Below, piece by piece: positions 1,405-19,823 of a stretch of 29,771 nt of DNA (within the stretch, counting starts at the first letter, position 1; each line of letters starts with the position of its first letter). Position numbers and translations under genes: made by a program. Origin of the DNA: a virus. A model generated the notes under the pieces. The model searched no databases and was not told where the DNA came from. It saw only the letters and a program-made list of their open reading frames with translations. The DNA lies in the IMG/VR virus record IMGVR_UViG_3300007735_000588, positions 1 through 29,771 of that record; one strand, written 5' to 3'.

Positions 1405-3120
1405 CTATCTTATGTCGTAGAAGTGTTTTATATTTCTTTTTGAATAACGGTCATTTAAAAAATCCCATAGTTGATTAAATCTCTCACCATCGTCATCCAA
1501 AATTAATTCAAAGTTTTCAGATACTTCTTCAATTAAATTTGATGTAACAAGATGATTAAATTTATATGGTGTCATTGCATTTAATTGTTTTTTCTTATCT
1601 GTATATCTTTTTGAAACCACCTTTAAAACATATTGATATATCTGTTCAAGAGTTTCCATATCTATCCTTCTCCTAAAGTAAGTAGGTAGTTCTTTTTCTT
1701 CCCTCAATACTGATTCATTAATTACATTTCCCAAATTATCATATTTTAAAAGTTCAGTTTCTATAAAAACATCAGCATTTTTTTTCCTCACATCCCATTC
1801 AGCCATCCAAGTAGGACAAACAACAATATTTCCTGAAGTCCATTTATCAATATCTCTTGATATTTTTGTATCAAACCACGACTCAATGTTTGCCGCAGTA
1901 TCATCAGAATCAAAATAAATTTTAAGTAAAGGTTTATCATTATAAGTTGATTGTTCTATAAATGAAATCTCATCATATAAAACATGAATAATTTGCTTAA
2001 CAAATTTTAATTTGCGTCCCTCGGATTCTTCCCTTAATATTATTCTTATGTTTTCTTGTAGGTTCATTTTAGATTTTTTAATTACTTGAATAACTTTTTT
2101 CCACACATTATTTGGAATAGGTATTGTTGTTAAACATTCATAGGTATCTAAATCACTAAAATTACCTAATTCATCTATACCAGAATCGTACATTTCTGTA
2201 TCTTCACCAACATAATATTGGTTTTTAATTTCTTTTTTTGTATGAAAACCATTTGCGTCAAAATATAAGTTGTTTGTTAATTTAACATATACGTGAATTA
2301 CTTCTTGTTCTTCTTCCGAAAATATGAAAGTAAATTTATTATACCCCAGTTTTGATATTTCTTTTGCGAATTTAAAACAACTACCTCTATTGATTACTTG
2401 GTAATCCAAATCATCAATTTTTCTTATATTATAAGCAATATAACTTAAATCTGAATATTCTTGGTTTTGTGTTTGTTTTTGTAAATGTTTTTCAGCTCTA
2501 TCTGAATACCATTTTTGTGCGTCCTCTAATGAATCAAACTTTATTGGATTATTAAAATTATCTTTTTGTGGACCAAATCCATAACCCCTACTTCTACCAT
2601 TTTCATCATACAGAATATTATTAAATTCTTCACTACCGTATACCAAATTAAACCCTATTACTTTGTTTGTTTTTGAGTCAAATATAAAATTCAACATTTC
2701 AGTATCCTCCCTTAATATTCTTCTTATGGATTCTTGTAATTTTGGTTTTTCTGTTCCTACATACGCATATATTGGTACCCCTAATTTTATGGCTGCGGAT
2801 AATCTATGTTGACCATCCACAATAGAATATTCTTTACCATTATCTATTAAAACTATCGCAGGAAATTCACTACCTTGGATGTACTGTTTCATATATCTTT
2901 TTACATCTCTTTTAGATGCGGGATATAACATTTCTTTATTTATTTTTTTATCATCAGGATAAATGAGTTTAGGTATTAAATCCCAATCATACCCACTTAA
3001 AGACGGTATCCCCATAAAGGCATTTCTTGCACCAGTATGTGGATTTGTATCACTAATGTGTTTTCTAACAAATTGATGGTCTTCCCTTAATATTCTTCTT
3101 ATGGATTCTTGTAAGCTCAT
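1405..3120 (-). CDS. Multi-tag polyprotein-like protein with ParB-like domain
   Basis: 571 residues in four modules, each preceded by a copy of the tag. Tags are at residues 2-14 (SLQESIRRILRED), 128-139, 353-365 and 468-475 (shortened, NESVLREE); each contains L-R-E (L11, L136, L362, L472). Module 1 (about 15-126) has a ParB/sulfiredoxin-like signature, VDGQHRLSAAIKLG at 101-114. Module 2 (140-350) has C248 in RGSCFKFAKEI, H276 in IHVYVKL and D288 in YFDANG, an order that resembles papain/transglutaminase-like hydrolases. Module 3 (366-467) is unknown. Module 4 (476-571) begins with the YFRRRI motif seen repeatedly in the neighbouring gene. Cleavage at the tags would release four proteins. 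The start follows TAA-G-ATG coupling to 3122-4264. Confidence 0.75.
   Translation of the reverse strand: MSLQESIRRILREDHQFVRKHISDTNPHTGARNAFMGIPSLSGYDWDLIPKLIYPDDKKINKEMLYPASKRDVKRYMKQYIQGSEFPAIVLIDNGKEYSIVDGQHRLSAAIKLGVPIYAYVGTEKPKLQESIRRILREDTEMLNFIFDSKTNKVIGFNLVYGSEEFNNILYDENGRSRGYGFGPQKDNFNNPIKFDSLEDAQKWYSDRAEKHLQKQTQNQEYSDLSYIAYNIRKIDDLDYQVINRGSCFKFAKEISKLGYNKFTFIFSEEEQEVIHVYVKLTNNLYFDANGFHTKKEIKNQYYVGEDTEMYDSGIDELGNFSDLDTYECLTTIPIPNNVWKKVIQVIKKSKMNLQENIRIILREESEGRKLKFVKQIIHVLYDEISFIEQSTYNDKPLLKIYFDSDDTAANIESWFDTKISRDIDKWTSGNIVVCPTWMAEWDVRKKNADVFIETELLKYDNLGNVINESVLREEKELPTYFRRRIDMETLEQIYQYVLKVVSKRYTDKKKQLNAMTPYKFNHLVTSNLIEEVSENFELILDDDGERFNQLWDFLNDRYSKRNIKHFYDIR
2030..2061 (-). repeat. 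Tag-encoding repeat, copy 1
   Basis: Encodes the internal NLQENIRIILREE tag of the 1405-3120 gene. It is a diverged copy of the 32-bp unit at 3083-3114. Confidence 0.6.
2708..2739 (-). repeat. Tag-encoding repeat, copy 2
   Basis: Thirty-two bases identical to 3083-3114, within the same open frame. Encodes the internal LQESIRRILRE tag. Confidence 0.8.
3083..3114 (-). repeat. Tag-encoding repeat, copy 3
   Basis: Encodes the N-terminal LQESIRRILRE tag of 1405-3120. Identical over 32 bp to 2708-2739, so homologous recombination between the two could excise or duplicate module 1. Confidence 0.8.
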
Positions 3121-3121
3121 C

Positions 3122-4264
3122 TTATGTATTTGACACTAATTTTTTATATCTACTTTTAATTCTATCTTTATAGTAATCTTTTAAACTTCCCATAGCATCA
3201 TCATACCATTGTGAATCTTCTGGCATTGTACTATATAGTTCGTAATGAATCCCATCCATTAAAATTGAAATTGTTACATCTATAAACCTATTTAAACTCA
3301 TAATACTACCATCATCTTTATTTGTATTACGTAACATATTTGATGACATATCTAAAGATTCACTAAACTCCCTCTCTAAATCATTGTTAGGGACTCTACG
3401 TCTAATCATTGGGATAGGTTTGGACTCTTCCCTTAATATTGACTCATTTAATGGTTCCTCGTCCAATTTTGAATTGATATATCTAATTAATGATGGGAGG
3501 TGATTGATGGACCATTTATAATCTTTGAATCGTTCTCTGTTTGACGAAATAAAATTTTGAATTGCGTCATATAAGGCGTCACTTTTATCCTTCCCCCCAC
3601 TTATAGAAATTTTAACATCCCTGACCAACCTTTCAAGGTCATTAGCGGTCACCCTTCTTCTAATGTAATCAGATAATTTGGTCTCTTCCCTTAATATTCT
3701 TCTTATGGTTTCTTGTAGGTTATCATTTTTTAAAACAACACACCTTTCATTGAAGTATTCAGTTAATTCATCGTATTTGTAATCAAGAATGTAATTCTCA
3801 ATATCCATTCTTTCAATACCTTGTAATTCTTCCACATCAACTAAAAACCATCTAATTTCATCTAATACACCTTCCACAAAATGGTCAGAAGAATTATAGT
3901 CGCACGGATACATATTTGGTAATAAATTATCTATCACCATATCAACTAAATGAGTTCTTCTTTTTAATTGTGTTGATATGTTTTCTTGTAGGTTCATCTT
4001 TTTTTTATGTTGGTTGAATAAAGTTTTAATATCTTTTTCAAGTATATTGGAAACTTCAGTTACAAATTCAATTTCTTCCTCTTCAGGTAAATTTTCCCAC
4101 CCAAGTTCATATTCATTCCACATAATCGCCTCAACCACTCTTAAAGTTAATTCGTATTTAAATTGGCTATAACTTTCAGTTTCATAGTATACCTGCTCAG
4201 CATTAATTTTAAGAAATTCTCTTACCTTTTCTATATTAACTCTTCGTCTAAAAAATGGATTCAT
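3122..4264 (-). CDS. Multi-module protein with repeated RRRV units
   Basis: 380 residues made of four related units. Unit 1 starts at once with MNPFFRRRVNIEKV and has no tag. Unit 2 begins with a degenerate tag (MNLQENISTQLKRR, 90-103) that lacks L-R-E. Unit 3 has a full tag (NLQETIRRILREE, 182-194) followed by DYIRRRVTANDLE. Unit 4 has a shortened tag (LNESILREE, 272-280) followed by PMIRRRVPNNDLE. The pattern tag, 4-8 residues, (Y/M)(I/F)RRR(V/I), acidic helices also occurs in the last module of 1405-3120. The function of the RRR unit is unknown. The start overlaps the upstream stop (ATGA), supporting a shared transcript with 4261-5016. Confidence 0.75.
   Translation of the reverse strand: MNPFFRRRVNIEKVREFLKINAEQVYYETESYSQFKYELTLRVVEAIMWNEYELGWENLPEEEEIEFVTEVSNILEKDIKTLFNQHKKKMNLQENISTQLKRRTHLVDMVIDNLLPNMYPCDYNSSDHFVEGVLDEIRWFLVDVEELQGIERMDIENYILDYKYDELTEYFNERCVVLKNDNLQETIRRILREETKLSDYIRRRVTANDLERLVRDVKISISGGKDKSDALYDAIQNFISSNRERFKDYKWSINHLPSLIRYINSKLDEEPLNESILREESKPIPMIRRRVPNNDLEREFSESLDMSSNMLRNTNKDDGSIMSLNRFIDVTISILMDGIHYELYSTMPEDSQWYDDAMGSLKDYYKDRIKSRYKKLVSNT
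3687..3718 (-). repeat. Tag-encoding repeat, copy 4
   Basis: Encodes the internal NLQETIRRILRE tag of 3122-4264. Nearly identical to the unit at 3083-3114; the changes are mainly one base in the middle and one at the end. Confidence 0.75.
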
Positions 4265-5016
4265 TTCTTTTTCTTTTTAACACAATTAGGGTATCTCTTA
4301 CCAAACATTGTCTTCATTCCTTTTTGAGTATAACCTGGCCAACACTTTTCTGTCAGTTCTGATTCGTTAACACCTCCTCTTAACCTTTCTATCTCTGCAT
4401 TTTGAAGTTTTCCTAAGTATACTCTCTCAATATAACCAGGACTGTCTTCCTCGTATTTTAATAACTCGTTCCTTTTAAATAATGTTGTTTTAAGAATAAG
4501 GTCAATCATTTCTTCTTGCGTAATTCCTTCAGGTTTTTCAACAGGTGGAACACATACTTCAACATTTTCAGGATATTCACTAATCCCATCTATTTCTATA
4601 TCATCCCTACCCATTTTTTCAATTACCTCCGGGAAAATATTCTCTTCAAACCACTCAATTATCCTATGTTTCAAATAGTGTTTTCTTATTGGAACATATG
4701 TAATCAAATCATCAATAATACTTTTTGGGATTGATAAATTACCTTCATAAAAATCTCTTTCGCTTGTGGGTCGTTTATCGGGATAAACACTATTATCTTC
4801 ATTAAAAAATAGAATAACATTTGCAATTTGCTTCCCCTTATTACACCAATAGAAATCGTGTCTAGTTTCATATGATTTTTGATGATACATCTTGGACCCT
4901 GAGAAAAGTTTGGTTAACCAATTATTGATTAATCTATTAGTACTCTCATTTGGTCTTAAATTGGCTTCGTTAACCTCTTGTCTTAATATTCTTCTTATGG
5001 TTTCTTGTAAGTTCAT
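4261..5016 (-). CDS. Tagged protein with C-terminal Cys/Lys module
   Basis: 251 residues. The N-terminal tag is MNLQETIRRILRQE, in which R-Q-E replaces the usual L-R-E-E, so the first site may not be cut. A second site-like segment near the C-terminus (NESELTEKCW, with L-T-E) precedes a compact module with KCWPGYTQKGMKTMFG and NCVKKKKK, that is, two Cys and a lysine tail. The central 190 residues are acidic and unrecognised. It is the first gene of the minus-strand cluster running to 1405 and is divergent from 5049; both starts have a TATTTATA box 5 nt upstream. Confidence 0.75.
   Translation of the reverse strand: MNLQETIRRILRQEVNEANLRPNESTNRLINNWLTKLFSGSKMYHQKSYETRHDFYWCNKGKQIANVILFFNEDNSVYPDKRPTSERDFYEGNLSIPKSIIDDLITYVPIRKHYLKHRIIEWFEENIFPEVIEKMGRDDIEIDGISEYPENVEVCVPPVEKPEGITQEEMIDLILKTTLFKRNELLKYEEDSPGYIERVYLGKLQNAEIERLRGGVNESELTEKCWPGYTQKGMKTMFGKRYPNCVKKKKK
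4979..5010 (-). repeat. Tag-encoding repeat, copy 5
   Basis: Encodes the NLQETIRRILR tag of 4261-5016. It differs from the 3083-3114 unit at only a few bases, including the change that gives RQ instead of RE. Confidence 0.7.
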
Positions 5017-5048: not shown

Positions 5049-5450
5049 ATGAAGTATATTATTACTGAATCACAATATAAATTAATCTCTGAAAAAATTG
5101 AAAGAACTTGGAGAGATAGGGAATATGAACATCAGTATCCAAAATTAAGTAGTAAAATAATTCCTTTTATTTCTAATATGATTAAATCATATAGTGAAGA
5201 TGAGGACCATAAAATTGCGTTAAGAGGTTCAGATGGTGAAATATTAATTTTATTTATACCATACAGATATTCAGACAAGGTTAGTAATAATGGTGAAATT
5301 TATTATAGTCGTATATTAGATAAAATGTTTGAGGAAATGTTACCTCATCCTTTATGGGCAGTTCACGGAAAATATATTTTACAAGATATCTACAACTCAT
5401 ACTTCCCTGACGCAAATATAATGGATGTTAAAAGTGCACAAATGGTTTAA
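5049..5450 (+). CDS. Tagged small protein (MKYIITESQ), HPxW-fold paralog
   Basis: 133 residues beginning MKYIITESQYKLISEKIERTW. The tag contains I-T-E. The body parallels 1012-1389: an (E)RxW opening, an acidic middle, GEIYYSRILD (compare GELYYDRELD) and LPHPLWAVHGKYIL. The two are tandem-derived paralogs separated by the minus-strand cluster. The stop is followed by T and the next ATG (TAA-T-ATG). Function of the body unknown. Confidence 0.75.
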   Translation: MKYIITESQYKLISEKIERTWRDREYEHQYPKLSSKIIPFISNMIKSYSEDEDHKIALRGSDGEILILFIPYRYSDKVSNNGEIYYSRILDKMFEEMLPHPLWAVHGKYILQDIYNSYFPDANIMDVKSAQMV

Positions 5451-5451
5451 T

Positions 5452-5775
5452 ATGAAATATCTAATTACAGAATCACAACGAGATAAAGTGGTATTCAAGT
5501 ATTTGAACTTACTTGATTTATATATGATTGAGCACAAAGGTGATTATATATTTTGGACATCAGAAGAAGCTTGGAGAAGTGGTGATTATTCTAATGTTTT
5601 AATCTCCGCACATCGTCGTCATAACGATTGTTTTATAAGTTCAGATTTACTTGAACAGGTATCATCATTTTTCAGTTTTGAGTTGAGGGAATCATTAGAT
5701 ATTATAGGTGAGTGGGTCAAATCCAAAGTTGATTTTGATATCAATTATTTTTATTCTGACTCTGAATCCGTTTAA
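5452..5775 (+). CDS. Tagged small protein (MKYLITESQ), FFS-fold paralog 2
   Basis: 107 residues. The frame is open further upstream to 5425, but I chose 5452 because it gives the tag MKYLITESQRDK and the TAA-T-ATG junction. The body (VVFKYLNLLDLYMIEHKGDY, SSFFSFELRESLDIIGEWV) is a close paralog of 5788-6114 and of 667-996. The I-T-E in the tag fits processing at residue 7. No catalytic motif seen. Confidence 0.75.
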   Translation: MKYLITESQRDKVVFKYLNLLDLYMIEHKGDYIFWTSEEAWRSGDYSNVLISAHRRHNDCFISSDLLEQVSSFFSFELRESLDIIGEWVKSKVDFDINYFYSDSESV

Positions 5776-5783
5776 TATTTATT
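5776..5783 (+). promoter_or_regulatory. Late-promoter-like box (TATTTATT), N4, ATG
   Basis: One mismatch to TATTTATA, placed 4 nt before the ATG at 5788 and directly after the previous stop. Confidence 0.35.
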
Positions 5784-5787
5784 CTAT

Positions 5788-6114
5788 ATGAAATACCTAA
5801 TCACAGAATCACAACGAGATAAAATGGTATTCAAGTATTTGGATAACCAAAACTTTCTAAAAGTTAAGAAAGATAAAGAAATTTGTTTTCTTTATTCACC
5901 TGATGATTTATGGGCTATAATGAAATATATGAGGGGTAAATTAATAATTAATAAAGATTTAACCACCGAAATAGAATCATTTTTTTCAATCGATGAAGAT
6001 GATGCCGAAATATTAATAAGAGATTGGGTCAGTAAAGAAATAGGTATAAATATTGACATTTGGGATGTTAAATCACTTAGCGGTTTGTTTGGAGATACTT
6101 ATTTAAGTATGTGA
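5788..6114 (+). CDS. Tagged small protein (MKYLITESQ), FFS-fold paralog 3
   Basis: 108 residues beginning MKYLITESQRDKMVFKYL, nearly the same opening as 5452-5775, then a diverged body ending IESFFSIDEDDAEILIRDWV. A recent tandem duplication is likely. Its stop lies 3 nt from the stop of the convergent gene at 6118, leaving no room for a terminator between them. Confidence 0.75.
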   Translation: MKYLITESQRDKMVFKYLDNQNFLKVKKDKEICFLYSPDDLWAIMKYMRGKLIINKDLTTEIESFFSIDEDDAEILIRDWVSKEIGINIDIWDVKSLSGLFGDTYLSM

Positions 6115-6117
6115 TTG

Positions 6118-6804
6118 TTAGTCACAATTTCTTTCATAATGTTTTCTTATTTCTTTACCAAACTTTTCAGGTACATATTCAAATATAAATTGAGCGATGT
6201 CTTGCCATTGTTCTGACTCATCGTCTAATTCATAGAATGTATTGAAGTATAAATTCTCAATAACCGTATGTGATATAACAGTTATTAGTTCGTTTCCACC
6301 TCTATAATTAATACACAGATACTGACCAATATAAACACTGTTAAGTAACTTTTTGACCTCATCATCAATTAAATTAGTTCGTCTCATGATTGGGTACAAA
6401 TTACTTTTAGATTCATTTAAAGTATCTTTCTTATCCGTCATATTTTTGTACTCTTCACAAGATTTTACGTATTCAATTTTAACTTCAACATTAATTGGTA
6501 AAAAAGCTCTGATGGTATTATGCATCTCATCAATAATATCCATTTCTTTTTCGTATACCGCTTGAGTTCTCGGCCAGTATTTACTATCAACACCTCCAAC
6601 AATGTAAACCAAAACTCTATATGGTATCATTCGTTGACTTAAAAAATAATATCTGTCAGCATTTTCTGAAGGAGTTAATATATCAACACCGCAAATCCTA
6701 TCATAACTCTTCATTATTGGTCTAATAGATGTTTTAATTAAGGGAATCATCTTTTGTTCCCTATCTTCTCTTAAAACCCTTTTGATTGTTTCTTGTAGAT
6801 TCAT
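6118..6804 (-). CDS. Tagged protein with a second degenerate tag
   Basis: 228 residues. The N-terminal tag MNLQETIKRVLRED contains L-R-E. A first module (about 15-130) contains a strand-rich core (PYRVLVYIVGG, NVEVKIEYV). A degenerate internal tag follows (TLNESKSNLYPIMRRTNLID), with the LNES and RRT elements of the neighbouring polyproteins but no L-R-E, and then a second module of about 85 residues. It couples to 6806-7417 by TAA-T-ATG. Function unknown. Confidence 0.75.
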   Translation of the reverse strand: MNLQETIKRVLREDREQKMIPLIKTSIRPIMKSYDRICGVDILTPSENADRYYFLSQRMIPYRVLVYIVGGVDSKYWPRTQAVYEKEMDIIDEMHNTIRAFLPINVEVKIEYVKSCEEYKNMTDKKDTLNESKSNLYPIMRRTNLIDDEVKKLLNSVYIGQYLCINYRGGNELITVISHTVIENLYFNTFYELDDESEQWQDIAQFIFEYVPEKFGKEIRKHYERNCD

Positions 6805-6805
6805 A

Positions 6806-7417
6806 TTAAAATATCATATCTTCATCCATTTTATCTTGGATATCTTGTTGTACTTTAGGTAATAGTTCATTCATAATTATGTCATAAACACCTGGTAAAT
6901 AAACTTCATCATACCAACTTAACAACTCTTCAACACTATCAAATCTTGTTTTGTCTTTTAACGCTTTGTAATAATTTCCACCACCTTCAATTTCAACAAC
7001 TGCCTGTTTGTCAATTTTTCTACTTCTATCCTCCAAAGTAAACCAATCAATCTCAACAGGTGTATAATCAACCCCATCCCAAAATGGTGTCGCCATTGCT
7101 GTAATAACTTCAGTATAATTAGGGAGAAATTCCCCTGTCTTTAATTCTCCATCCCAATAAACAACACCATCCAAAGTTGATTGTATCTTAAATCCTTTGT
7201 AGGTGTCAGTTAAATTACCATTCTCCAAATTCTCCATCAATACATCGTTAGCAATCATACCGTTGATTGGTATATTAGCAATTTGAACCAATTTTGTAAA
7301 AGATATACCCCACATTTTATAGGTGTTATAAATACCATGTTGTTCAATGTACTTACGTAAAAGTCGCTCTTGCTTGTCCTCTTTTAAAACTCTCTTAATT
7401 GTTTTTCTTATATTCAT
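6806..7417 (-). CDS. Tagged protein with KYIEQHG-type fold
   Basis: 203 residues from MNIRKTIKRVLKEDKQ. The frame is open up to 7444, but 7417 gives the tag and a TAA-T-ATG junction with the gene upstream. The tag contains L-K-E. The next segment, KYIEQHGIYNTYKMWGISFTK, is a short helical motif paralogous to segments in 8852-9376 and 9475-9888. The rest is acidic with several tryptophans. Unknown function. Confidence 0.75.
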   Translation of the reverse strand: MNIRKTIKRVLKEDKQERLLRKYIEQHGIYNTYKMWGISFTKLVQIANIPINGMIANDVLMENLENGNLTDTYKGFKIQSTLDGVVYWDGELKTGEFLPNYTEVITAMATPFWDGVDYTPVEIDWFTLEDRSRKIDKQAVVEIEGGGNYYKALKDKTRFDSVEELLSWYDEVYLPGVYDIIMNELLPKVQQDIQDKMDEDMIF

Positions 7418-7418
7418 A

Positions 7419-8156
7419 TTAGTAAGCGTATTCAGCATTATCAAATGTGGTAACCTCTTCTAAATTTTCCAATCCATCGTAATTATCTTGAAACCATTTA
7501 ACTAAACTATCATTTACTTCATCCCAAGTTTCCATTGAGAACATTTCAGACACCGCTTCCCATATACTTTCATCAATCATAACTTCCATAACCTCTCTTC
7601 TTTTGTTGAAGAATATGGTTGCAATTAAATTATCATTATTACCAGTAATGTCAAATCTATAAGCTTCGCGATTATATTCCTGTTTAAATTTACCTTGTGG
7701 TTGAATTAATGAGGTAATATATCTGTAAACCAATTTATCCTTCTTGGTTTCTTCTTTGAGTATTCTTTTAATTGATTCTTCTATCATGTCTTTTTCCATA
7801 TCGACAGGTTTAACCTCCAACCAAGAAAAAGACATTCTTTTTACATGGTTTTGAACTCCCAACATGTCCCAAGAAGTTTTAAAAATTTCTTGTATCTCAT
7901 TACTATCATCAACACCTATAATATCACCAAGTGTTAAATATTCGTATTCTATTGGTCGTGAATAATTATACTTTCTCCATTGGTTTCCTAACCAATCGCT
8001 ATCAACATATATATAACCGACTGGACTAAATGATTTTATTTGGTCACTGAAACCAACCGCATTTAATTCAATATGGTCAAACCAATCAAATTTTTTTGAT
8101 AGTCGTTTGTTCAGTATCTTTCCTAATCTTTTAGCGTTTTTATCTATATCTTCCAT
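7419..8156 (-). CDS. Two-module protein with internal tag
   Basis: 245 residues from MEDIDKNAKRLGKIL. An upstream open stretch to 8201 overlaps 8158-8481, but the 8156 ATG follows that gene's TAG by one base. Module 1 (about 1-125) is unrecognised and has no N-terminal tag. An internal tag (DMIEESIKRILKEE, with L-K-E) precedes module 2, KDKLVYRYITSLIQ through VSEMFSMETWDEV and WF, which is the same fold as the MKY-tagged proteins at 667, 5452 and 5788. This looks like a fusion of an untagged gene with a tagged one. Confidence 0.7.
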   Translation of the reverse strand: MEDIDKNAKRLGKILNKRLSKKFDWFDHIELNAVGFSDQIKSFSPVGYIYVDSDWLGNQWRKYNYSRPIEYEYLTLGDIIGVDDSNEIQEIFKTSWDMLGVQNHVKRMSFSWLEVKPVDMEKDMIEESIKRILKEETKKDKLVYRYITSLIQPQGKFKQEYNREAYRFDITGNNDNLIATIFFNKRREVMEVMIDESIWEAVSEMFSMETWDEVNDSLVKWFQDNYDGLENLEEVTTFDNAEYAY

Positions 8157-8157
8157 A

Positions 8158-8481
8158 CTATCCATAAATAGTTTCACCATCAGTACCCATAACTGAGACA
8201 TATATTTGACTAATATCTCTTGTAGATATGTTTATGTATTGAAGTAAATAACCCACATACTTGTCAATTAAATAATGTGGGTCCAATCCTCTCTCATACA
8301 TAGTAGGAATGTCAACCATATCAGGGTCGTTCACATATATGTATAAATAAATGTCATAAAAAGGTAAAGTTTCATCCTTGTCCCAATCAACCTTTGTCTC
8401 AATGCGGTCAATCATTGGGTATACCTTTTTGATGTAATCCGAATTAACTAACTTATTTAATATTTTTGAGTTTAAAATCAT
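8158..8481 (-). CDS. Hypothetical protein, untagged member of the cluster
   Basis: 107 residues starting MILNSKILNKLVNSDYIKKV. The body has alternating acidic strands (FYDIYLYIYVNDPDMVDIP) and a motif RGLDPHYLIDKYVGYLLQYI. It has no tag of its own. Its start overlaps the upstream stop (ATGA), and the downstream gene begins 1 nt after its stop. It may be a complete or partial module that elsewhere is joined to a tag. Confidence 0.7.
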   Translation of the reverse strand: MILNSKILNKLVNSDYIKKVYPMIDRIETKVDWDKDETLPFYDIYLYIYVNDPDMVDIPTMYERGLDPHYLIDKYVGYLLQYINISTRDISQIYVSVMGTDGETIYG

Positions 8482-8855
8482 TTTGTTTTTCTTTCATCAT
8501 AAAACCATTTATGGTCTTTGTAAGATTCAATGGTTGATACCGAGCCCGTAATTCCTGAATTGAAGTAATCTGAAAACATACTTCTAACTCTTTCTCTACC
8601 ATGTCTGAGCAGATTATGTAACATATCAGAATCTTCTTTTTTGAATGGTTTTTTCATCAATGTAGTTATATGACACCGTTTACCATAATCATCATCATAA
8701 ATATCTACAATCACACCATAAAAGTTATCAGGTTCCAACAATACACCTTCAAAATTAGGTTTACCAAATTGTTTGGCAATTAACTTCTCAAGTTTGGTTC
8801 TTTCACCAAGTTCCTCAGTCTCTTCTTTCAATATTTGTCTTATAATGTCTTTCAT
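8478..8855 (-). CDS. Tagged small protein (MKDIIRQILKEE)
   Basis: 125 residues. The tag MKDIIRQILKEE contains L-K-E and is followed by an acidic linker (TEELGERTK) and a body with KLIAKQFGKPNFEGV, a strand-rich region (YGVIVDIYDDDYG) and a basic end. Coupled on both sides by ATGA overlaps. Family not recognised. Confidence 0.75.
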   Translation of the reverse strand: MKDIIRQILKEETEELGERTKLEKLIAKQFGKPNFEGVLLEPDNFYGVIVDIYDDDYGKRCHITTLMKKPFKKEDSDMLHNLLRHGRERVRSMFSDYFNSGITGSVSTIESYKDHKWFYDERKTK

Positions 8856-9376
8856 TTATAATCATTTAAATTATACTTGTCAATTATCTGTTGGAATATT
8901 TGCATTCTATATGTTTTTGCTAATGTTTCTCTTTTTGATATACCCGAATATCCAAACCCATGACTTCCGCTCATTCCAACGACTTTCCAAACAACTTTTC
9001 CGTTTGCGTAATTAACTTTTCGTAACCTAGCATCAAAAGAATATTGAAAGTCATTTTTCCTACCGAATTTAAACTTACCTAATTTTTTTTCGTCTTTACC
9101 AAAATCTTCCAAATTTAAATATTGTACAAGAGTATCATCAAAATACATATTAACCACATCACCTTCTTTAATTCTATAGGGTTCTATATTTTCATTTTTG
9201 TAAAACTCTTTAATGTCCCCACCATATACAATATCAATATATCTTTTAGGTCCTCCGAACATTTCAAAAGCATTCTCAATACCGAGTTTATCAGCAATCC
9301 TTTTAGCTTTCTCAGCCGAACTTATCTGAGGTTCCTCAGTTTGTTCCTTCAGTACTTTTAAGATAATATCTTTCAT
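8852..9376 (-). CDS. Tagged protein with KYIEQHG-type fold (MKDIILKVLKEQ)
   Basis: 174 residues from the ATG at 9376, chosen over an upstream extension because it gives the tag MKDIILKVLKEQ and sits 5 nt after a TATTTATA box. The helical segment DKLGIENAFEMFGGPKRYID is paralogous to KYIEQHGIYNTYKMWG in 6806-7417. The rest contains a strand-rich, Lys-rich half with FGYSGISKRETLAKTY near the end. First gene of a minus-strand run reaching at least 6118. Confidence 0.75.
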   Translation of the reverse strand: MKDIILKVLKEQTEEPQISSAEKAKRIADKLGIENAFEMFGGPKRYIDIVYGGDIKEFYKNENIEPYRIKEGDVVNMYFDDTLVQYLNLEDFGKDEKKLGKFKFGRKNDFQYSFDARLRKVNYANGKVVWKVVGMSGSHGFGYSGISKRETLAKTYRMQIFQQIIDKYNLNDYK

Positions 9377-9381
9377 TATTC

Positions 9382-9389
9382 TATAAATA
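9382..9389 (-). promoter_or_regulatory. Late-promoter-like box (TATTTATA), N5, ATG
   Basis: On the minus strand TATTTATA lies 5 nt before the ATG at 9376. A TATATTTG (9390-9397) abuts it upstream and could act as an alternative host-type -7 box, but no good -33 box precedes it. Confidence 0.5.
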
Positions 9390-9400
9390 CAAATATAATT

Positions 9401-9436
9401 AAAAAACCCCACCGAGTAGCGAATTCAATGGGGTTT
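9401..9436 (-). terminator. Rho-independent terminator of the 9475-9888 gene
   Basis: On the minus strand an 8-bp stem, AAACCCCA / TGGGGTTT (9429-9436 with 9404-9411), closes a 17-nt loop and runs into TTTTTT (9401-9406). It ends transcription from 9888 just before the promoter of 8852-9376. Confidence 0.75.
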
Positions 9437-19097: not shown

Positions 19098-19278
19098 TCT
19101 TTAATGATATTCCGTGTTTCAATCCAGATATAAAATCATTTAATTCTTCTTCTGTTGATAGGTGTTCACCAATTGCAATTCCTATTTCATTACCAATGTC
19201 AGATATATCACCATTTTTGTAAGCAATATTCGCCAAACTGATAACTAAACTACTTGATATTTTTTCAAACTCTGTCAT
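19084..19278 (-). CDS. Hypothetical 64-aa protein
   Basis: Starts MTEFEKISSSLVISLANIAY; helical, acidic, ending SGLKHGISLKNGTH. It shares one base with the stop of the phosphoesterase gene, indicating coupling. Helical bundles of this size are common in phages, but the function is unknown. Confidence 0.6.
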   Translation of the reverse strand: MTEFEKISSSLVISLANIAYKNGDISDIGNEIGIAIGEHLSTEEELNDFISGLKHGISLKNGTH

Positions 19279-19823
19279 TACTTTACATTAATTTTCATTT
19301 TAACCTTATCACCATTTGGTTTTGAATACACCGCATATTGTGGTTTCAAATTATAACTCAAACCTTTTAACTTCTCAACATACTTCTTACCCATATTTGG
19401 TTTAAGGTAACCAATTGTTGTGTGAGGATGGTAATCAGGAAAACTATTGGTGTGCGGATACTTACGAAGTAAATCATTTGTCTTATGTAAGTTATCTCCT
19501 GATACATCAAACTTTAATACGTCATAGTCAGGGTTTTGAAATAGAGATGCGTTTTGTAATTTACAATTACCATATGTAAATCTATTTAAAACTTTTCTAA
19601 CATCATCTTCAGTTACATCATCGTGTAATCCAAATAAGAGTGTTGTATGAGGTTCATCTTCCAATCCGAAACTTCTATCACCTTCCTCGTAATAAACATC
19701 GTTATCGTCAATTAACTCGTGTATTTCTCCCATCTTTGGGAAATCGTAATATAACATTACGCAACCATAGTCAAACTTTTCTTTGGTTTCTTCTTTTAAA
19801 ATTTTCTTTATTAAATCTTTCAT
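19278..19823 (-). CDS. Tagged 2H phosphoesterase (LigT/Acb1-like)
   Basis: 181 residues. After the tag MKDLIKKILKEE (L-K-E at 9-11) comes a 2H phosphoesterase with both H-x-T motifs: PHTTLLFGL (His59, Thr61) and PHTTIGYLKP (His134, Thr136), about 75 residues apart as the family requires. These enzymes open 2',3'-cyclic phosphates or cleave cyclic oligonucleotides; T4 Acb1, which disarms CBASS immunity, is a member. It is the only clear enzyme with an N-terminal tag, and it lies 10 kb from the main tag cluster, which suggests packaging in the capsid and injection. The substrate is not predictable from the sequence. Confidence 0.85.
   Translation of the reverse strand: MKDLIKKILKEETKEKFDYGCVMLYYDFPKMGEIHELIDDNDVYYEEGDRSFGLEDEPHTTLLFGLHDDVTEDDVRKVLNRFTYGNCKLQNASLFQNPDYDVLKFDVSGDNLHKTNDLLRKYPHTNSFPDYHPHTTIGYLKPNMGKKYVEKLKGLSYNLKPQYAVYSKPNGDKVKMKINVK

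Follow-up and report, generated by a model that had tools for sequence, protein, structure and literature searches.

The internal proteins of the T-even phages are described as diverse defence proteins whose only common part is a capsid targeting sequence (CTS) (PMC3012670), and the T4 Alt protein is cut at ITE-6 and LTE-619 (PMC5694885). Both gp23 and gp24 of T4 are cleaved by gp21 (record NC_000866). Polyvalent proteins (Iyer et al, 2017; PMC5512222) carry several unrelated domains, ParB-like ones included, on one polypeptide that is predicted to be injected. The ejection proteins of SPN3US and phiKZ are virion-internal and have long propeptides that are cut off at x-x-E motifs, there by S80 proteases, and lost; the SPN3US paralogues gp53 and gp54 have the same N-terminal 15 residues (PMC5694885).

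The locus described here lies in a viral contig of 29,771 nucleotides (IMG/VR record IMGVR_UViG_3300007735_000588), referred to below as the window. An ORF on the minus strand (1405-3120, with its ATG at 3120) encodes 571 residues and is predicted to specify a polyprotein of four units in a single frame, each consisting of a short tag and a module. As with the T4 internal proteins and Alt, there is a short N-terminal helical propeptide (the helix, at residues 3-13, is predicted with low confidence) ending in an [IL]-x-E site, the phage group has an S77 protease and gp23, and the cargo is diverse with only the tag in common. In T4, however, there is one CTS per gene, whereas here dozens of genes have a common tag, and the tags recur within one ORF, separating two to at least five modules. 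Unlike in the polyvalent proteins, the modules are joined by a repeated targeting and cut tag, and cutting would probably occur in trans through the prohead protease rather than through an embedded peptidase; unlike in SPN3US and phiKZ, one chain would give several mature cargo proteins. We consider it likely that the tag works as a capsid-targeting propeptide of the T4 type, carrying a site for the prohead protease, and that the ORF specifies virion-internal proteins joined as a polyprotein, one protein probably being cut, by analogy with T4, into several that are loaded in the head. If so, a DNA phage would offer a rare example of a virus-style polyprotein, with the head protease cutting it in trans.

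A sequence-only reading of the window had proposed four copies of the tag in one frame, each with L-R-E and each followed by a different domain. All four positions are indeed present, each with LRE, the fourth in a reduced form. With a slash marking the predicted cut, tag 1 (residues 2-14, SLQESIRRILRED; 3079-3117) reads SLQESIRRILRE/D and is the predicted N-terminal targeting propeptide and cut site. It is followed by module 1 (residues 15-127; 2740-3078), which is ParB/Srx-like with the motif VDGQHRLSAA, a weak assignment (PHROGs, phrog_1033, E 3.3e-6); ParB-like modules also adjoin tags in five other loci (L025, L030, L035, L043 and L059). Tag 2 (residues 128-139, LQESIRRILRED; 2704-2739), LQESIRRILRE/D, precedes module 2 (residues 140-352; 2065-2703), and tag 3 (residues 353-365, NLQENIRIILREE; 2026-2064), NLQENIRIILRE/E, precedes module 3 (residues 366-467; 1720-2025). 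These three tags are near-identical (...LQESIRRILRE followed by D or E) and score 40-41 bits with the tag PSSM (41 for tag 1), against a maximum of 5.8 among 137,447 positions of shuffled ORFs. Tag 4 (residues 468-475, NESVLREE; 1696-1719) scores -11, below detection by that PSSM, and stands at the exact start of module 4 (residues 476-571; 1408-1695), which L043 has as a tagged gene of its own. The two residues before it are VI, so that VINESVLREE holds two [IL]-x-E sites, INE/S directly beside LRE/E. Module 4 is helical, belongs to the 'RRR' module family and is modelled with a pLDDT of about 70-90, while the model of the full-length protein is poor (mean pLDDT 51.6), with middling matches in a fold search (Z up to 6.1). 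The modules are mutually unrelated, phmmer finding nothing beyond chance similarity among the four.

We infer cleavage, packaging and ejection along the following lines. The short amphipathic helix of the tag would bring the precursor, as a single chain, into the prohead core, where the gp21-type (S77) prohead protease would cut at the [IL]-x-E at the end of each tag, that is after E13, E138, E364 and E474 (and/or E469). Released in this way, the ParB-like protein, the possible papain-like hydrolase and the two small proteins of modules 3 and 4 would be packaged alongside the DNA and would probably enter the host by ejection.

To survey the tag more widely, IMG/VR contigs were searched with a degenerate DNA pattern encoding LQ[E][ST]IRRILRE[ED], which occurs in 47 stretches from about 44 viral contigs. 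None of 84,980 prokaryotic genomes (257 Gb) matched it exactly, and tblastn found the tag in none of the cultured phages; the full-length query had no match in phages and the query of modules 3 and 4 none in plasmids. The carriers are large T4-like phages, all uncultured, and the tag contigs with gp23 fall in one group with a mean MCP identity of 79% among 14. In the open-access papers that were searched, neither the tag nor polyproteins delimited by it are described. Scanning the tag loci with the PSSM gave 193 tags in 170 ORFs. Tag and module evidence together identify 50 ORFs in 32 loci with at least two modules each (36 with two, 11 with three, two with four and one with five), and a 911-residue ORF of L048 has, by eye, about seven units, module 3 among them behind an internal tag.

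Comparison with the relatives shows that separate genes begin or stop exactly at the junctions of the window ORF. L076 encodes module 2 by itself (63% identity), with its own, different tag (MNLNENIHRIKSMMGINE/S), and the gene ends in VIKKSSSN followed by a stop, at the point where the window ORF runs on into tag 3. In the sister phage L006 (208,634 bp) modules 3 and 4 form one gene (8013-8675) that starts at tag 3 with MNLQENIRRILREE and is 93% identical, the identity of the two phages over the shared modules being 91%, and module 4 is in L043 a separate tagged gene (5375-5704) with 76-78% identity. Overall, homologues with a tag at the N-terminus exist in another contig for 41 internal or upstream modules, and most align from the first residues behind the tag.

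The junctions were also located from module sequences alone, with the tag removed from the queries, giving 53 distinct internal module starts, and the motif [IL].E, fixed in advance from T4 gp21, was scored within an 11-residue window. It is present at 39 of the 53 starts, the expectation from these proteins being 8.9 (p about 5e-5, the limit of 20,000 simulations), whereas a control motif at the same junctions is not significant (26 vs 21). A looser motif, [ILVM][NTRSK]E[SADEGNQ], which was chosen post hoc, occurs at 44 of 53 (4.7 expected). Among the 29 junctions that lack a helical tag, [IL].E is retained at 18 (4.9 expected). Such a pattern is what a polyprotein would be expected to show, since a cut site is needed at each joint but a targeting helix only once. 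Some multi-module ORFs, in the window that at 3122-4264 and elsewhere one in L030, have no N-terminal tag, and there targeting would have to come from the internal tags. The helix-less junctions also bear on the idea of an uncut polyvalent protein, in which the modules would stay on a single chain through packaging and injection, with the tags as linkers or extra scaffold-binding helices. Multi-domain injected proteins with ParB-like domains are known, some of them packaged unprocessed (PMC5512222), and the tags are predicted, at low confidence, to be helical; neither a linker nor a helix, however, would need the motif that persists once the helix is lost, and the units exist as separate proteins in relatives, which makes an uncut chain unlikely.

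The window contig, a 29.8-kb fragment, is without head genes or a protease of its own, and its link to a protease is through the sister phage. L006 has a homologue of gp21 (Peptidase_S77, PF03420, E 9.4e-27) and one of gp23 (E 5e-64), and of 25 other tag contigs 16 have a gp21-type protease and 15 have gp23. Neither was found in the long tag contigs G010, G012 and G016, possibly because these are incomplete. In 13 MCPs of tag contigs and in that of the sister phage the propeptide ends in LYENQAS[HFY]LINE followed by A or S (ALLNES in G008), and the E of LINE/[AS] aligns with E65 of T4 gp23 (FLTE/A), the T4 cut lying at E65/A66. T4 gp24, which begins MAKINELLRE, is cut directly behind this sequence. 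From these alignments the MCP propeptide appears to be cut at the same type of site as the tag. In G001 two tagged proteins (45083-46292) and one with VNE/ST (47830-48558) adjoin the gp23 gene. The further suggestion of the sequence-only reading, that one product would give several proteins if the tag were a protease site, is consistent with all of the comparative evidence: the tag ends in the T4 gp21-type [IL]-x-E, the sister phage encodes an S77 protease, as do most tag contigs, the modules are separate tagged genes elsewhere, and internal junctions keep the cut motif and not the helical part.

At the DNA level the tag is unusually conserved. Silent sites in the tag codons mismatch between contigs at 0.19. 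The value predicted by codon usage is 0.47, and the MCP gene, a single-copy gene of these phages, gives 0.34-0.37; for most core tag codons the value is only 0.02-0.17. In L043, L059 and L035 one ParB-like module is joined to three different downstream modules, the DNA being about 80-100% identical as far as the end of the tag and near-random beyond it. Taken together, the silent-site conservation and the breakpoints at the tag indicate that it is probably also a recombination joint, and the polyprotein gene would have arisen when recombination within the near-identical tag DNA fused separate tagged genes in frame. The conservation is between phages; homogenisation within genomes is not clear (0.185 within vs 0.204 between), and gene conversion is not claimed for that reason. 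That close relatives (L006 and the window) have the modules fused in one case and separate in the other, together with the near-identity of tag DNA between genes and the breakpoints, would also suit neutral fusion relics, in which recombination between tag repeats deleted stop codons and left internal tags without function. Yet E12 is kept in 97% and L10 in 86% of internal tags, the fusions recur in many loci and reach at least five modules, and the motif survives at diverged junctions in which the rest of the tag has decayed, and we hold this explanation to be quite improbable. There is about an even chance that the cut propeptide which we favour extends to a plug-in cargo system, with one tag serving as head-targeting signal, cut site and DNA recombination joint. 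A shared pool of modules would then exist, from which five or more could be strung together per gene with packaging and release kept, and the tag would offer a simple account of how phages reshuffle their injected proteins.

In module 2 the residues C248, H276 and D288 are conserved, and its model (pLDDT 67.7) gives weak matches to papain-like folds (NTAQ1, NlpC/P60 and SseI, Z up to 4.9), suggesting a possible papain-like hydrolase with a candidate Cys/His/Asp triad. The L076 homologue matches PF24591 (E 0.0066); module 2 itself had no match in BFVD at E ≤ 0.001, nor did its alignment among PDB sequences. Embedded peptidases free domains in some polyvalent proteins (PMC5512222), and module 2 might on this evidence cut the polyprotein itself in place of the prohead protease. 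This is very improbable, as module 2 is not seen in most of the multi-module ORFs surveyed and the junction motif is of the S77/gp21 type. Least credible of all is that the tags are internal start or regulatory elements instead of protease sites: tag 3 has a Met (M352) and the conserved silent sites would allow a nucleic-acid role, but tags 2 and 4 have no Met and so are not start sites, the same being true of 34 of the 38 tags (among 193) that lie more than 60 residues inside an ORF, which have none nearby, and the conserved part is an amino-acid motif, I-x-x-x-L-x-E, in 140 proteins (themselves chosen by the tag).

Pfam searches of 140 tagged proteins returned one ART-PolyVal domain and one Acb1-like protein, most remaining without assignment. 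A DYSP-type module as the source of the ART-PolyVal match was not supported. The modules would act as effectors in the host by analogy with the T4 precedent, on which this role is based because Pfam leaves most of the tagged proteins unassigned. Injected proteins of T4-like phages evolve fast and are hard to recognise, and a clear tag makes likely cargo readable from sequence, providing a list of candidate counter-defence proteins. One such is a LigT/Acb1-like 2H phosphoesterase in the window (19278-19823, minus strand; tag MKDLIKKILKEE; phrog_755 E 7e-9, PF23474 E 5.7e-4), a candidate packaged anti-CBASS protein.

Other tagged genes of the window are likewise on the minus strand. The 380-residue ORF at 3122-4264, whose first module is the untagged one, has internal junctions MNLQENIST, LQETIRRILREE and LNESILREE, and in L006 the last of its modules stands alone as a tagged gene (6957-7301). 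The genes at 4261-5016 and 6806-7444 carry the tags MNLQETIRRILRQE and MNIRKTIKRVLKED, that at 6118-6804 has two modules with an internal DTLNE/SK, and the ORF at 7419-8201 has an internal tag, MIEESIKRILKEE, the module behind which has a gene to itself in L028 (73% identity). A short tag variant is found in two genes at 8478-9412 (MKDIIRQILKEE and MKDIILKVLKEQ). The protein from 4261-5016 ends in SELTE/KCWPGYTQKGMKTMFGKRYPNCVKKKKK, with a basic, Cys-containing segment, CWPGYTQKGMKTMFGKRYPNCVKKKKK, immediately behind SELTE; this segment also occurs in cyanophage proteins, mostly behind an [IL]-x-E-like site, and two of the five checked are encoded directly upstream of the large terminase gene. 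On the plus strand, at 348-1389 and 5049-6114, are divergent arrays of small genes, most of which begin MKYIITESQ or MKYIIKESQ. This start is probably a second tag class; MKYIITESQ also contains [IL]-x-E (IITE), comparable to ITE-6 of T4 Alt.

The C-terminus of the scaffold protein, ...RMKDLMxKIK (L127-L142; G001 scaffold, 50755-52290), resembles the phages' own short tag, that of the phosphoesterase. Similarly, the scaffold of Flavobacterium phage immuto (NC_055915, 125626-126867) ends in QKLAGIIK, comparable to the short tag MQKLAGIITESQ, and candidate short tags of this phage are MQKLAGIITE/SQ and MKKSQLRQIIKE/A. The likeness between scaffold ends and tags is suggestive, and the tag may mimic the scaffold end. 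One tag contig, G004 (IMGVR_UViG_3300032296_003307; 268,739 bp), has two gp21 and gp23 sets, at 31-35 kb and 233-238 kb, and is either a chimera or two related phages.

CRISPR-like arrays were seen in L006 (4991-6629, minus strand) and in the loci L022, L028, L062 and L152-L166. The repeat pattern was absent from the 84,980 prokaryotic genomes, and the L006 array had no match in Rfam. They consist of a 36-nt repeat, GTTGTAGATACCTTATGATTTAGGACCTCTTCCACC, and 30-nt spacers, the period being exactly 66 in 161 of 161 intervals, and the 77 distinct spacers have a GC content of 44%, compared with 31% for the window. The arrays are located within the 3' portion of a small paralogous gene and keep to its frame, which has 0 stops in 161 units; the other two frames have stops in 108 and 44.
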